The notes under the pieces are model-generated. The model was not told where the DNA came from. It was given only the letters and a program-made list of their open reading frames with translations, and did not search any database. Below, one piece after another: positions 5,201 through 22,419 of a stretch of 64,000 bases of DNA. Every line of letters begins with the position of its first letter. The stretch's first letter is position 1. The translations under genes were made by a program, and so were the position numbers. The stretch comes from Muricea muricata (Eukaryota > Cnidaria > Anthozoa > Malacalcyonacea > Plexauridae), in contig OY979718.1 of the NCBI GenBank assembly GCA_963855995.1, forward strand, positions 49,057,064-49,121,063, written 5' to 3'.

Positions 5201-15839
<10,639 letters not shown>

Positions 15840-16486: not shown

Positions 16487-16490
<4 letters not shown>
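15840..16490. other. Intergenic region after CNBD2
   Basis: This holds the CNBD2 3' flank. No canonical AATAAA was seen close to the stop. It also holds AT-rich sequence and a block (about 16365-16420) resembling other TTTAAAGGGAATTGGC-type repeat ends. No gene was recognised. Confidence 0.4.

Positions 16491-16534
<44 letters not shown>
16491..16534. repeat. (TA)n microsatellite at the 5' boundary of a PLE
   Basis: Twenty-two TA units end exactly where the coding similarity of the plus-strand Penelope-like element begins. Confidence 0.95.
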
Positions 16535-16535
<1 letters not shown>

Positions 16536-18249
16536 GCAATACTGCAATTACGAAAGCCTACAAAAAAGCGCCACCAAATACTACCGCACAAATAATCGCA
16601 GAAGAAAAGAAAATCGCAAAGAGTCTTGACCTTGATGACCGCATTGACTCGCTAGCAACGAAGGATAGCTTTATCACACTTAAGGACCACAAACCGAATT
16701 TCAATAACAATCCTACATGCAGACTTATCAATCCTTCTAAATCCGAAATCGGGATTATCAGCAAACAAATCCTCCAGAGAATAAATGCAGCAGTCCTGGA
16801 GCATATTAATGTCAACCAGTGGAAAAATACAGATTCCGTCATATCGTGGTTCAGTAATCTACCAAATAAATCTACCCGTTCATTCATCAACTTCGATATA
16901 GTAGATTTCTATCCCTCTATATCTGAAGAGTTACTGTGTGAAGCCCTCACTTTCGCTTCAAACTATGTCCCAATTACCGACAACGAGAAAAACATCATCA
17001 TCCAGGCAAAGAGCTCAGTGCAAGAAAAGATGGTGCAAGAAAACATCAAGTTCACTCTTCGACGTAACGATGGGCAGTTTCGACGGCGCCGAAACATGTG
17101 AATTGGTAGGTTTGTACCTACTATCCAAGTTACCACCAGAATACAGCACTGATGTTGGTCTATACAGAGATGACGGCTTGGCGGCTCTTGATAAATCCCC
17201 AAAAGAAATTGAAAATATTAAAAAACACATCTGTAAAATTTTCAACGACCACAACCTTAAGCCCATTAAGCCCACAATAGAAGCAAACACGAAATGCGTC
17301 AATTTCCTTGATATCACCCTAGACCTACGATCTGCATCCTACAAACCGTACATGAAACCTGGTAACACCCCGCAATATGTCCACCGCAACAGTAATCACC
17401 CACCATCAATATTACGTTCCGTGCCTGAAGCCATAAACAAACGATTATCGAATATATCATCACATAAGAATGCTTTCGATTCAGCTGTTCCACCTTACCA
17501 GGAAGCTCTGCAAAAAAGTGGTTACAACTTCAAATTACAATACAACCCTCAACCGTCAAAACCTAAACGATCCAGAAGTAGAAATATAATATGGTTCAAT
17601 CCACCCTACAATTCCACAGTTAGCACGAATATTGGCTATAAGTTTCTTCAAGCCGTCGATGATTGCTTCACACCCGACCATCCTTTACGCAAAATATTTA
17701 ACAGAAACACTCTAAAATTAAGCTACAGCTGCATGCCTAACGTTAAATCCATAATCTCTAGCCACAACAAATCTGTACTCAAGGACCAATCAGTCACATC
17801 AGCAAGTCAAGTAGACAAAGATTTGCAACTGCCGAAAGAAAGATACCTGCCCTCTCTCTGGTAAATGCTTAACAACGAACGTGGTTTACCAGGCAACAGT
17901 TACCAGAGATGACACAAACGAGCAAGAAACTTACGTAGGACATACAGAGTGCCAATTTAAGACGAGATATAACGGCCACACCAGTTCTTTTCGAAACGCG
18001 AAATACAAGCACGCCACAGAACTGAGTAAACATGTCTGGAATCTCAACGATAAGAATGTAAAATACTCAATTAAGTGGAGGGTACTTGCAAGATGCAATA
18101 GCTATTCGAACAAAACCAAACGATGCCATCTGTGTTTGCATGAGAAATATATTATAATATACCACCCTAAACTTGCCTCTCTGAACTCTAGAAACGAACT
18201 TTTATCTAAATGTAGACACCGGAATAAATTCCTCTTGAGCTATAAGTGA
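16535..18249 (+). pseudogene. Penelope-like retroelement, 5'-truncated: reverse transcriptase + GIY-YIG endonuclease
   Basis: The reading starts without an ATG next to the TA repeat. It has reverse-transcriptase motifs in order: [52 protein letters not shown], then the catalytic LYRDDGLA (about 17160-17185), followed by NFLDITLDL and the thumb/linker. The C-terminal part at about 17830-18249 has a Cys-rich [14 protein letters not shown] segment. It then has a GIY-YIG-type endonuclease core, VVYQATV..TYVG, FKTRYNGHTSSFRN and RCHLCLHEKY. RT plus C-terminal GIY-YIG defines PLEs. At least two frameshifts (near 17035 and 17820) split the frame into 16938-17864 and 17881-18249, so this copy is dead. 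It converges with a second PLE on the minus strand. Confidence 0.85.
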
Positions 18250-18351
18250 TTTCCTAACAGATAACAATGTAACATAACCTTTTTAATCTCAACGTAGTGA
18301 CGTCAAACATGTATATAGTATATCCTAGGCAACGAAACGCGCTAATATTCA

Positions 18352-18412
18352 AATTCACCTGATGAGTGTAACAGGGTTCTCCCTGTTATACGAAACAAAT
18401 TTGTAGTGAATT
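18352..18412 (+). ncRNA. Type I hammerhead ribozyme, ~100 nt after the PLE stop
   Basis: All elements of a hammerhead are present. Stem I is AATTCAC (18352-18358) pairing with GTGAATT (18406-18412), 7 bp. The core is CTGATGA (18359-18365). Stem II is 11 bp, GTGTAACAGGG/CCCTGTTATAC, closed by a TTCT loop. GAAA (18392-18395) follows, then a short stem III (ACA/TGT with loop AATT). The cleavage triplet GTA ends at 18405. Short stem III with open stem I is the form known from Penelope-like elements and retrozymes. Catalytic activity is not shown, but every invariant core base is intact. Confidence 0.88.
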
Positions 18413-18519
18413 AAAATGTAAATGTAATATTTCAAGTTTGTTTTTATCTTATTCTTATTCTTATTTGCTCTACTATTGTATTGAGCACTGTGTCTATACA
18501 TGATTCACAAATTGTTTAT

Positions 18520-18648
<129 letters not shown>

Positions 18649-18653
<5 letters not shown>

Positions 18654-18691
18654 CTGATGAGGCGTAAACGCCGAAACATGCATGTCTGCAG
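18649..18691 (+). ncRNA. Second hammerhead ribozyme, minimal form
   Basis: Stem I is CTGCA (18649-18653) pairing with TGCAG (18687-18691). The core CTGATGA is at 18654-18660. Stem II is GGCG-TAAA-CGCC (18661-18672). GAAA is at 18673-18676. Stem III is ACA/TGT with loop TGCA, and the cleavage triplet GTC ends at 18686. All core bases are conserved. It forms a palindrome with the broken minus-strand copy and is flanked by TA repeats. Confidence 0.85.
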
Positions 18692-18719
18692 ATATATAGA
18701 TATATATATATATATATTA

Positions 18720-19298
18720 AGATTCCTTCTGGATGAAACAGACTGTAGTGGTATAAGTTTTTGAGGTATTTTGCACGATTATACATTTCGCTCTGTCTAT
18801 ATGTCATTGAGCACTCTTGTATTTCGCAAACAAAAACTAGCACACTATATATATATGGGTTTTTTTCTTTCAAAATACTAATTTTCTCGTCCAAACATAA
18901 ATTACATTTGGATCCTTCCGTGTAAGAAATGGACTTTTTTACTGTAGACCATTTTATGGCGAAATCTGTTTTGTTTTGCTTTAAGTGCCAGACGTGTTTC
19001 GAAAGTTCCGTTTCGTTTAAATATTTTTTGTGTGTGAAAGATTTAATATGATTCCTGTTCGCTCTTTAACTCTGTTTGAAGTCATGCCAATGTAGTGCTT
19101 TGTGTCCTGTGTGTTGCTTGTATTAATTGTTGCTGTGCATACAATGTCCAGATGTCCTTACTCGTGCACTTATTCTGCAGTGGGCATGCGTGCTTGTTCC
19201 TACAGTTACAGTTCACTGCAGTAATGTCTTGTGGTTGGCTTTTCCTAATTATGCGTGTGTATTGTGATTTGTGATAATTAACTTAACGTTACTCACGC
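18720..19298 (-). pseudogene. Penelope-like element, endonuclease part (decayed, minus strand)
   Basis: On the minus strand the sequence continues a PLE: VSNVKLIITNHNTHA near 19290-19250, then ALHWHDFKQ-type GIY-YIG remnants with many frameshifts. LSKHVWHLKQNKTDFAIKW and KCNLCLDEKISILK lie near 19010-18860. It matches the C-terminal half of the plus-strand PLE in order. It is the downstream half of the element whose RT part lies at 21338-22295. A transposon at 19308-21328 separates the halves. Confidence 0.75.
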
Positions 19299-19307
19299 AA
19301 CTGTAAC
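19299..19307. repeat. 9-bp target-site duplication, left copy (AACTGTAAC)
   Basis: AACTGTAAC is repeated exactly at 21329-21337. The duplication splits the codons of the PLE's SYSCVSNVK segment, which reads through once the insert is ignored. Confidence 0.85.
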
Positions 19308-21328
19308 GGGTTGGGATAAAACACGGATACGGATGGCACGGATACGGATACGGATACGGATGGGGGGATAAAACACGGATGAGGGGATAAAACACGGATG
19401 GGGGGATAAAACACGGATGAGGGGATAAAACACGGATGGGGGGATAAAACACGGATGAGGGGATAAAACACGGATGGGGGATAAAACACGGATGAAGGGA
19501 TAAAACACGGATGGGGGGATAAAACATACCCATGCATTCAATAAGCAAAAAAACAACGATTCAGTCTACTTTCTCGATATTTTTGAGAATTTACGATTTA
19601 GTGAGGGAGCTTGCCTTACCCGCTGTTTACATAGCATAAAGAAAGCACTTTTTGTTTAATATTAGATTTGCTTTACTTTGTAATGATGTTATGTTCTGAC
19701 AAATCTCGCGTTGCGGTATATTGTATACTCCACATCACGCTGCAGATTAAAACTTTAAAAGACGAATTTATAGTTTAATCACTCTGAATTTCTTTGCTAC
19801 TTTAATGCTTGCCTTTAACAAATAGGTAATATCAAATACATACATATCAACACGAAATCAGTTATGAATTATGGGCAATTTTAACTTAGACATAAATGAA
19901 ACGTAAGTATAGACGCTTCGCATTATTCATATGTACGTACGTACACGCACGGAACAATTCAATCCTTCTAGTTCCAAATTCTAATTAATTACAAACTAGA
20001 AATTTCTGATAGAAAGTGAAGTGCTGCGAAATGTACAAATACATTTATTAAAAATATAAACATTTTATATAGTCCATATGTAACAAAAGTTATCATAACA
20101 AAACTTCAAACCAAAAGACAAAAACAATTTTTAGTCAGATTACTTAGTAGAAAAGTTGACCGCTGATCATGAACGACTGCCAACGCATATTTACAACACG
20201 TCACAAATCATCGTTTAGGTGCATACGCGTACGTACCACAAAACATCGAGAACACAAACACTTATTCATGTCGTTGTTCCCCCATAAAAATGAACTCGAT
20301 ACAGACTTTTCCGTGCGTATAGAAGTACATGTATATCGTCTACTGAGTCTATGTATAGAAAAGACGTAAAACTCAACAGTGGTATAAATGTCTTAGCTAA
20401 ATATCTCGAATAATACGAAGTAAATATGAGTGCCAAAACTCAAATTCTGCATACACTGAATGCATTCTTAGAAGTAGATTAACAGTTGTTTGTTTTTGAG
20501 ATTTGGATAATAATCATCCAAACGTGCAGGCAAATAAGAAGTGTTTCGGAAAATGGATCAGGACTGACGTAGAAACCATAAAATCGCGAATTTTGAAGTT
20601 CGTTTATTTAACTTGTCAGAAAGTTCATAAAAAACTACATATAAGACCACCACGGTTTTTCAAGCGAGTTATTACTGCTTTAAGATGGAAAAAGTCCTAA
20701 AATGGCGCAAATTTCGTGGGCACTAGTCTGCCCATAACCCTCATAACTCAACAAAAACTTCCAAAATCAAAGTAACTATAATGATGTGGTATATGTAGTT
20801 CTATATTACCTTTCTGATGACATAATTGATTTTCCTATCAATGCCTCTGAAATTTTACCTTTTTTACATTAATAGTTTTTATTGGAAGATTCAACTAGGA
20901 AAAAAACGTGTTGGCAGTAGCCCACATGAAATTTGAAAGCGCTCAACATACAAAAATATACTTAACAGACTTAAAGGTACAATATAAACCTAAAGTTAAA
21001 TTGCCCCTCGATCTGATAAATAAAAATGTACTTTTATACTTCCAGCTGCCTGACTATAAATGATAAAGGCGTATTTTTTATGTTGGCTATACTAGCTCGC
21101 CGTATAAATTTATGGCGTGTTTTGGCGTCAATATACTGCATATTTATCCCCTCATCCGTGTTTTATCCCCCTCATCCGTGTTTTATCCCCTCATCCGTGT
21201 TTTATCCCCCCATCCGTGTTTTATCCCCCCATCCGTGTTTTATCCCCTCATCCGTGTTTTATCCCCCCATCCGTATCCGTATCCGTGCCATCCGTATCCG
21301 TATCCGTATCCGTGTTTTATCCCAACCC
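19308..21328. mobile_element. 2.0-kb non-autonomous transposon with minisatellite TIRs and 9-bp duplication
   Basis: Both ends begin GGGTTGGGATAAAACACGG. The terminal inverted repeats (19308-19526 and 21145-21328) are not unique sequence. Each is an outer block of ACGGAT hexamers followed by tandem copies of the 19-mer GGGGATAAAACACGGATGR. The interior (about 19530-21140) is AT-rich, with no recognisable transposase. The 9-bp duplication AACTGTAAC flanks it perfectly and it sits inside a minus-strand PLE. A 9-bp duplication is typical of Mutator-like elements, which is the best guess. Open frames across the arrays (repeats like [13 protein letters not shown]) merely reflect a stop-free repeat. 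Confidence 0.85.
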
Positions 21329-21337
21329 AACTGTAAC
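21329..21337. repeat. 9-bp target-site duplication, right copy
   Basis: An exact repeat of 19299-19307. Confidence 0.85.
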
Positions 21338-22295
21338 TGACCTTAACTGTGTTCCTATTAAAAATTTTCTGTAATTTGCTGCCTATTGGAAAGTGCGTGT
21401 CTACAAGCTTGAGGAAGCTGCGTGCAATATTTGTCTTAACATTTTTGCTGAATGGAGGGTTAACCAAATTATGTTGCGTTGTCGGTTCCTGCGTGGCTGC
21501 TGTGTTGCATGTGGCATGTATTCCAACTTGTGGCTGAAGTTGCTATCTCCTATTGCGTTTTGATATGTTTGTACTCCATCGTCGAATACTTGTTTGTCAG
21601 ATGACAGCGTTGAAATGCGCTTGTTGATAGATGCTGGAAATTGCCCTAAAATGCTAGGTGGATGGTTAGAGTGTTTGTGTACGTGTAACGGATCGTCATA
21701 TTAGGCTTCCTATAAGGTTTATATTTTCCGGTAGCAAGGTCGAAAGTTACGTCTGTAAATTTGCTTCTGTTGTTATTTTTAGTTATTTTTGTTATTTTAA
21801 AACTTCATGGAGTTCTTTTCTGGTTTTGTCTGCCAAACGTTCTGATATGTTTTTAATTATCGCCAAACCTTCGTTCCTATACAAGCCATTTTTTTCTTGC
21901 CAAACTTTTTTCCTAGATGGTTTAAGATGAAAAGACCTACTAGTTCGCAAATTTCTGCCCCGTCATAGCTAGCCATGGTGACATCAAACAAATTGCTATT
22001 GTTGTTTTTGTTCCACGGTTTTCCGTCATTGAAAAGGAGTGATTTTCTAGCGCGTTTTATAGAAATGTCTTCGTCCGGAATGTCAGCCAAATTGGAGGCC
22101 CAAGACAATGCTTGGTCCAGTAAATTTTCAGAAGTTGACGGGTAAAAGTCGACTATGTCATAAACGAAATTAAAGAATGCCTAGTTTTTTCCTCGATGCT
22201 GCCAAACCATTCTATGACGTTTTGCGTGTTTCTCCATTGGTTTGCGTTCAAAATTGACTAAATTTTTGTGTTTATTTTTTCCAATATTGATTTAC
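21338..22295 (-). pseudogene. Penelope-like element, reverse-transcriptase part (decayed, minus strand)
   Basis: Minus-strand frames recover PLE RT blocks in order from high to low coordinate. These are ILNANQWRNTQNVIEWFG, SLLFNDGKPWNKNNNSNLF then DVTMASYDGAEICELVG (about 22000), KFTDVTFDLATGKYKPY, and [19 protein letters not shown] with [13 protein letters not shown] just before 21338. It has numerous frameshifts and stops. It joins to 18720-19298 after removal of the 2.0-kb insert and one 9-bp duplication. Confidence 0.8.
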
Positions 22296-22419
22296 TATAG
22301 CAGTAGAATCCTACCAGAATCCGCGCTAGAGCGCAACGATTCTCCAATTCTGGGAAAAAAACTAACCTGTCTCACGACGTTCTAATCCCAGCTCACGTTC
22401 CCTATTGGCGGGTAAACAA

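Follow-up and report, generated by a model that had tools for sequence, protein, structure and literature searches.

Why does an intact-looking hammerhead ribozyme lie close behind the broken ORF of a Penelope-like element (PLE), and what does its presence say about how such elements are copied? We analysed the 64-kb window that contains it (the whole stretch of DNA under study) and searched the genome (453 Mb, 74 contigs). Our overall reading, to which we give a probability of roughly 80%, is that the hammerhead is part of a young PLE that inserts into (TA)n, and that the reverse transcriptase (RT) of this element would copy a second hammerhead-bearing element, a retrozyme, in trans. PLE hammerheads, retrozymes and their RNA circles, PLE start sites and tails are all already known. 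The features of the locus on which the argument draws are these (positions in the window, strand, description):

16490-16534, unstranded: (TA)n tract to the left of the PLE copy
16535-18523, plus: 5'-truncated PLE copy, whose segments 16538-17020, 17031-17822 and 17815-18237 are homologous, in three frames, to the family C ORF
17881-18249, plus: ORF with what we take to be a GIY-YIG-like endonuclease motif, with no Pfam or PDB match
18352-18412, plus: family A PLE hammerhead, cleavage point 18405/18406 (from sequence, RF00163 match, fold energy and descriptor scan)
18395-18404, plus: stem III palindrome ACAAATTTGT, of a kind that would suit a dimer (from predicted energies and arm comparison)
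18465-18485, plus: hairpin sequence right after the putative short RT start, TTCTTAT, then TTGCTC...GAGC; the window has one TTCTTA unit more than most copies
18520-18526, plus: putative long RT start and 3' end of the window copy, ATTCTAT, its last TAT common with the TA repeat
18524-18620, unstranded: (TA)n tract, target of PLE and retrozyme
18620-18648, minus: second, inverted arm of the retrozyme fragment, perfectly complementary to 18654-18682
18649-18691, plus: retrozyme hammerhead with GTC, cleavage point 18686/18687

A hammerhead in the terminal repeat of a Penelope-like element

The motif at 18352-18412 has the make-up of a type I hammerhead, with CUGAUGA, GAAA and GUH, three stems, and an opening at stem I. 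The core consists of CTGATGA (18359-18365) and GAAA (18392-18395), with G18403-T18404-A18405 directly 5' of the cleavage point. Stem I is formed by 18352-18358 with 18406-18412 (7 pairs) and stem II by 18366-18376 with 18381-18391 (11 pairs, including one G-U), closed by a TTCT loop. A sequence-only reading of this DNA had described the core bases and both of these stems correctly. A strict descriptor scan of the window returned two complete type I hammerheads only (18352-18412 and 18649-18691), and the same descriptor returned none in 100 dinucleotide-shuffled windows. The segment 18349-18416 has a fold energy of -21.4 kcal/mol (z -5.0), a value equalled by 0/200 shuffles. The covariance search that the sequence-only reading had put forward as a check gave a weak answer: RF00163 (Hammerhead_1) finds the motif (E 0.0006 in a 251-nt search) but scores it at 24.5 bits against a cut-off of 34. 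This match was absent from the listing when 9 kb were searched at once, the Rfam gathering score was reached nowhere in the whole window, and six related loci gave no Rfam match at the cut-off. Passing this cut-off is not what defines a hammerhead ribozyme; the motif has every core base, yet would fail it. RAGATH-34, MIR530 and other miRNA matches from the Rfam searches of the window were below their cut-offs and were discarded. We are nearly certain that the hammerhead at 18352-18412 is a real ribozyme motif of a PLE.

The very short stem III that had been noted is an accurate description of the monomer, but an incomplete one. Positions 18395-18404 form a perfect 10-nt palindrome, which would permit two window-type hammerheads to form a common stem III of 10 bp. 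The predicted energy is -51.6 kcal/mol for such a dimer, compared with 2 x -20.4 kcal/mol for the monomers, and on this ground we rejected a monomeric, very short stem III as the whole story. Since stem III is palindromic, cleavage as a dimer is likely, as these models have it, and dimer cleavage of such PLE hammerheads is reported in passages of PMC7761336.

The window copy of the PLE starts at 16535, behind (TA)n, without approximately the first 132 codons of the family C ORF. The ORF upstream of the hammerhead stops at 18249, 103 nt before the motif, in agreement with the earlier estimate of about 100 nt past the endonuclease stop of a broken ORF, which lies in three frames and lacks its 5' part. 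That the motif sits just downstream of the ORF is right as to position, and incomplete in that it lies in the terminal repeat of the element, on both sides of the ORF in two fuller loci. At the family A locus L023 the two hammerheads are 2415 bp apart, and at the family C locus L059/L083 they are 2389 bp apart and flank the ORF; L059 with L083 gives an unbroken ORF of 702 codons beginning MEPV. Both loci have the PLE pseudo-LTR on either side of the ORF. The proteins of families C and A are 71% identical over the aligned C-terminal part. Putative YRDD and GIY-YIG-like motifs would mark the family C ORF as a PLE-type RT with endonuclease, and we likewise presume a GIY-YIG-like motif in the window ORF at 17881-18249. 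Neither the window pieces of the PLE protein nor the family C protein had a confident match in Pfam or PDB, and fold models of two window pieces were of poor quality and unfit for a structure search. We call the elements Penelope-like because of these presumed motifs and because of their terminal repeats, tails and head-to-head habit (PMC3846280, PMC11167929).

A query spanning 18200-18480 found at least 44 matching places (40 of 547 candidates scored), and the other family A copies are mostly 93-99% identical to the window copy. For family C, 20 of 52 matches, the query itself not counted, have a displayed identity of 100% across 309 or 369 bases. All PLE and retrozyme copy numbers given here are lower bounds from one genome. 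Head-to-head inverted, truncated arms occur in 13 of 20 regions (9 kb each, one of 5.5 kb at a contig end), and in most inverted pairs of families A and C a tail is present on one arm, as is found in PLEs. The hammerhead of the window belongs to the terminal repeat of a young PLE family. According to passages of PMC3846280, one of two inverted repeats may bear a tail, and the Penelope elements of the rotifer Adineta vaga are alike in their head-to-head inverted repeats with an optional tail on one; they differ in that the text searched there mentions no hammerhead or passenger retrozyme.

Other PLE-related pieces were observed. The inserts at L049, L050 and L054 are tiny head-to-head insertions of almost only PLE hammerhead and tail; their arms meet at GAATATTC, a self-complementary sequence immediately 5' of stem I. 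The minus strand of the window holds an older, decayed Penelope-like element at 18871-22296, with matches to the family C ORF protein (32-53% identity) at 22296-21324 and 19305-18871. A 19-bp minisatellite forms oppositely oriented arrays at 19344-19489 and 21160-21286, with complementarity of up to 98% across 119 nt. By eye, 18714-18845 (plus strand) resembles a 5'-truncated piece of a further PLE family that ends in a TA repeat; within it GGATGAAACAGACTGTAGTGG resembles the 3' half of a hammerhead and is followed by TTTCGCTC...TTGAGCACTC. Flanks similar to this piece, again by eye, adjoin the retrozyme in L042 and L103.

Insertion end points and the form of the template

PLE copies terminate in (TA)n at two preferred points, with GCTC...GAGC after each. 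With the break marked by a slash, these are TTCTTAT/TTGCTCTACTATTGTATTGAGC and TTCTAT/TTCGCTCCTTCACTGTTGAGC in family A, and TTATAT/CCGCTCTACTTCGGTATTGAGC and GTCTAT/TTTGCTCCTTTACTGTTGAGC in family C. The 3' ends of the 52 family C matches fall at query position 309 (18), at 368-369 (24) or elsewhere (10), placing 42/52 at the two points. By analogy, those of the L094 family are predicted at query 39 and 118 of L094:60-360 (minus strand). Family A head-to-head pairs with both 3' ends visible combine a short with a long end in 9/11 cases (exceptions L030 and L026), the arms at L028 being 1.9 kb apart. The same combination was found in 9/11 head-to-head pairs of family C (exceptions C1:62279706/62282094 and C1:22585547/22586991), a count that omits one divergent pair, C1:115882097 and 115882362 (80-82% identity). 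Such pairing fits a PLE that cuts and extends both strands from two internal starts, by analogy with PAc, an Anolis PLE studied in vitro (PMC11167929). PAc is also alike in its tandem units, its hammerhead, its AT-rich targets and its two internal RT starts, which give the tail. It differs in that its ORF begins at stem II and its RT starts lie inside the ORF, whereas here both putative starts lie between hammerhead and ORF, each then followed by a GCTC...GAGC copy. Of six GCUC...GAGC hairpins, five had no clear extra stability (equalled by 22 to 93 of 300 shuffles), the short-site hairpin of family A being the sole clear case (1/300).

The second hammerhead of the window, which the sequence-only reading did not contain, is complete and lies inside a 29-nt perfect inverted repeat, 236 nt beyond the PLE hammerhead. 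The inverted arm at 18620-18648 stops before the cleavage point, so that there is no complete hammerhead on the minus strand. The plus-strand part recurs at a minimum of 39 further genomic sites (40 of 172 candidates scored), and L046 holds a tandem unit of 281 bp with a type I hammerhead. A unit of about 170-400 nt, a type I hammerhead and tandem copies characterise animal non-LTR retrozymes, and all three were found; by its sequence, the second hammerhead is assigned to a retrozyme of about 281 bp. The animal non-LTR retrozymes described in passages of PMC7229834 are alike in having a type I hammerhead in a unit comparable to the 281 nt seen here, tandem copies, and a genome that also has hammerhead PLEs. 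Matches of RF00008 and RF03152 on the retrozyme were below the Rfam cut-off and were set aside.

Retrozyme 3' ends were placed for 30 segments from 28 loci, among which L044, L063 and L064 are apparent duplicates, as are L075 and L076. Most of the segments (26) stop 5-12 nt past the cleavage point, three reach the query end as tandem copies, and one ends elsewhere. The end point reads AGTAT/TACGCTCCTTCACTTCGGTGTTGTTGAGC, and a second subfamily (L103) ends at TACTAT/, where the inner unit continues AATGCCCCTTCACTTCGG. The inverted arm in the window, unlike 26/30 segments, ends 3-4 nt before the cleavage point and not at the start site. Among the retrozyme loci examined, the window fragment is the only one with the head-to-head form, compared with 13/20 regions for the PLE. 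At 255-801 of L102 (C1:84851750-84852550), a second-subfamily retrozyme is fused directly to an antisense PLE RT fragment with 70% identity to family C over 97 residues, forming a chimera. Contig C53 has three retrozyme copies of the same variant at 8709, 50823 and 92936, about 42.1 kb apart, which suggests a large tandem repeat.

With a query spanning the retrozyme start point we obtained at least 42 matches (40 of 211 candidates scored): 19 run on from the preceding unit, 15 have their start at query 34-41, which is the start point with its TA microhomology, and 8 start elsewhere. With the C53 triple repeat counted once, 13/21 placed 5' ends lie at the start point (binomial P about 8e-11 for an 8-nt target that was picked after earlier end-point data). 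Among 21 fetched contexts, which overlap with the 42 matches, the copy starts no more than about 4 nt from the point in 12, runs on from the preceding unit in 8, and starts about 17 nt upstream in 1. Three copies (L069, L071 and L078) both start and end at the point, with a total of 283-285 nt.

In both elements the putative RT start lies just downstream of the cleavage point, so the copied template would have stayed uncleaved or been joined again; PLE insertions extend across the cleavage point, and the same would hold for their RNA. A linear cleaved monomer cannot yield a one-lap copy, because just 12 nt separate its 5' end from the start point downstream. A circle copied through a single lap would give retrozyme copies that begin and end at the start point, and we favour the circle: a circular template seems the better choice for the retrozyme, though not by a firm judgement, and for the PLE itself we consider it rather unlikely. 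A credible, if doubtful, alternative is that the template was a linear, uncleaved multimer, the 5' ends at the start point then resulting from stopping of the RT or from microhomology with (TA)n. The run-through tandem copies (19/42) are in keeping with a multimer, the start point has a TAT able to pair with the target, and the PLE studied in vitro used unprocessed RNA and inserted without ribozyme cleavage (PMC11167929). Yet a block at the hairpin would stop the RT before the hairpin, whereas the copies contain the whole of it; TTATATA elsewhere in the unit offers longer and better microhomology but is used by few of 28 loci; and 13/21 of the placed 5' ends lie at one point. A circular retrozyme template remains our preference.

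The sequence at the start points of PLE and retrozyme

Each 17-mer from the L023 unit was set against the retrozyme's plus strand (679,990 comparisons). The single best match, 16/17, falls at both start points and begins three bases before the break. The L094 family matches the retrozyme at 16/17 at the start points (among 102,025), and family C at 14/17, tied with two other places; the break points of families A and C and of the retrozyme are those of insertion ends, that of L094 being set by analogy. Genome-wide, the pattern GCTCCTTYACTN{1,14}TTGAGC has 30 matches and its reversed control 0. All 30 have either the 26-nt retrozyme form (23) or the 18-nt PLE form (7); the context was examined for 21/23 and 6/7, respectively, and the seventh PLE-form match lies inside a family C match. 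The 26-nt form has stayed unchanged in L097, a locus with 80% identity to the first retrozyme subfamily across 160 bases. Scores over the whole region are weaker: the gapped score of PLE against retrozyme is not significant (196/2000 shuffles and 26/620 window pieces as good), and the ungapped score of 79 compares with a null that reached 90 in at least one of 150. The register test, the genome patterns and the one-lap count were all designed after the similarity had been seen in the data. A motif scan of viral contigs found nothing. Judged by these matches, retrozyme and PLE appear to have a common RT start signal, of which a literature search, largely at listing level, gave no report.

A retrozyme with the PLE start signal would very likely be copied by the PLE enzyme in trans, and we regard copying of this retrozyme by a PLE enzyme as probable. 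That PLEs move animal retrozymes has been proposed in passages of PMC7229834 and PMC7761336 from co-occurrence and hammerhead type; here the proposal would draw on an apparent common start signal and on matching end points in genomic DNA. Alternatively, the retrozyme arose from a PLE terminal repeat, a descent already proposed in passages of PMC11722881, and GCTC...GAGC is a relic or has another job (promoter, RNA stability) while another enzyme, for example that of a LINE, does the copying. We find this improbable: the common stretch is short, as a relic might be, but it begins at the insertion end in both elements, both target (TA)n, the rest of the PLE and retrozyme units has no equally good match, and the 26-nt form persists in L097 despite the divergence around it. 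Chance or a common AT-rich bias, which the gapped score and the ungapped null (90 against 79) would accommodate, is very unlikely to have produced the start-point match, given the register test with families A and L094 (the L094 start by analogy only) and the 30 genome matches against 0.

Age of the ribozyme and the proposed copying cycle

The sequence-only reading had attributed the perfect ribozyme beside a dead ORF to selection on the RNA or to a recent insertion. Over 55 family A copies, 29/3254 cells vary in the ribozyme (0.9%), 38/3696 in the upstream flank (1.0%) and 27/2318 in the downstream flank (1.2%). Drift in the ribozyme is about as rapid as in its flanks, and the ribozyme of the window is intact because the copy is recent; this half of the suggestion is supported, in line with the high identity of the copies, while selection is not visible within single copies and was rejected for the window ribozyme. 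Retention by selection for a host function, however suggestive an intact ribozyme beside a broken ORF, is hardly credible when the ribozyme varies about as its flanks do in 55 copies and the copy is simply young.

Selection on the ribozyme shows only between families, not among single copies. When the arms are compared from the core outward, 5/11 pairs of stem II have changed at both positions from the window to family C, with pairing preserved. A MAFFT alignment of 12 sequences has 3 double-changed pairs, with a covariation score reached by 2/500 shuffles, and sliding the same alignment by one column also gives 3; MAFFT places a gap inside stem II, so alignment-based pair counts understate that helix. 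Stem I is weaker in family C (5/7 pairs), and L058 loses one or two stem I pairs. Both the window and L058 have a stem III that is perfectly palindromic over 10 nt; that of family C falls slightly short of this. The minimal type I PLE hammerheads of Cervera and de la Pena (2014) and Lunse et al. (2017), as conveyed by passages of PMC7761336 and PMC11722881, are alike in lying in the terminal repeat, in their short stem III and in occurring at both ends of fuller copies. By comparison, stem III here is a perfect palindrome in family A and L058, and related families with a compensated stem II occur in one genome.

We propose the following cycle. A young PLE with a putative endonuclease inserts into (TA)n. 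Its unit of about 2.4 kb consists of the hammerhead, two putative RT starts each then followed by GCUC...GAGC, the ORF, and the next hammerhead. The ribozyme would cleave tandem transcripts, probably as a dimer via the palindromic stem III, and the RT, primed by a cut in (TA)n, would begin at either of these starts. Both cut ends would often be extended, usually one per start site, leading to head-to-head copies. The retrozyme, of about 281 nt, has its own hammerhead and apparently the same start signal 12 nt past the cleavage point, and the PLE protein would bind its RNA and reverse transcribe it in trans, probably from circles. A broader view, for which we see the case as evenly balanced, is that retrozymes parasitise PLEs through a copied RT-start signal used in trans, that insertions starting and ending at the signal are footprints of one lap around a circle, and that PLEs may take the circle route too.

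Which enzyme copies animal retrozymes, and what role hammerheads have in PLEs, are described as unsettled in passages of PMC7229834 and PMC7761336. A short common signal with a defined start nucleotide would make the question of retrozyme copying testable at the bench. If the one-lap reading holds, circular-RNA templates would be recognisable from genome sequence alone, and if PLEs do use the circle route, their hammerhead would gain its missing role.
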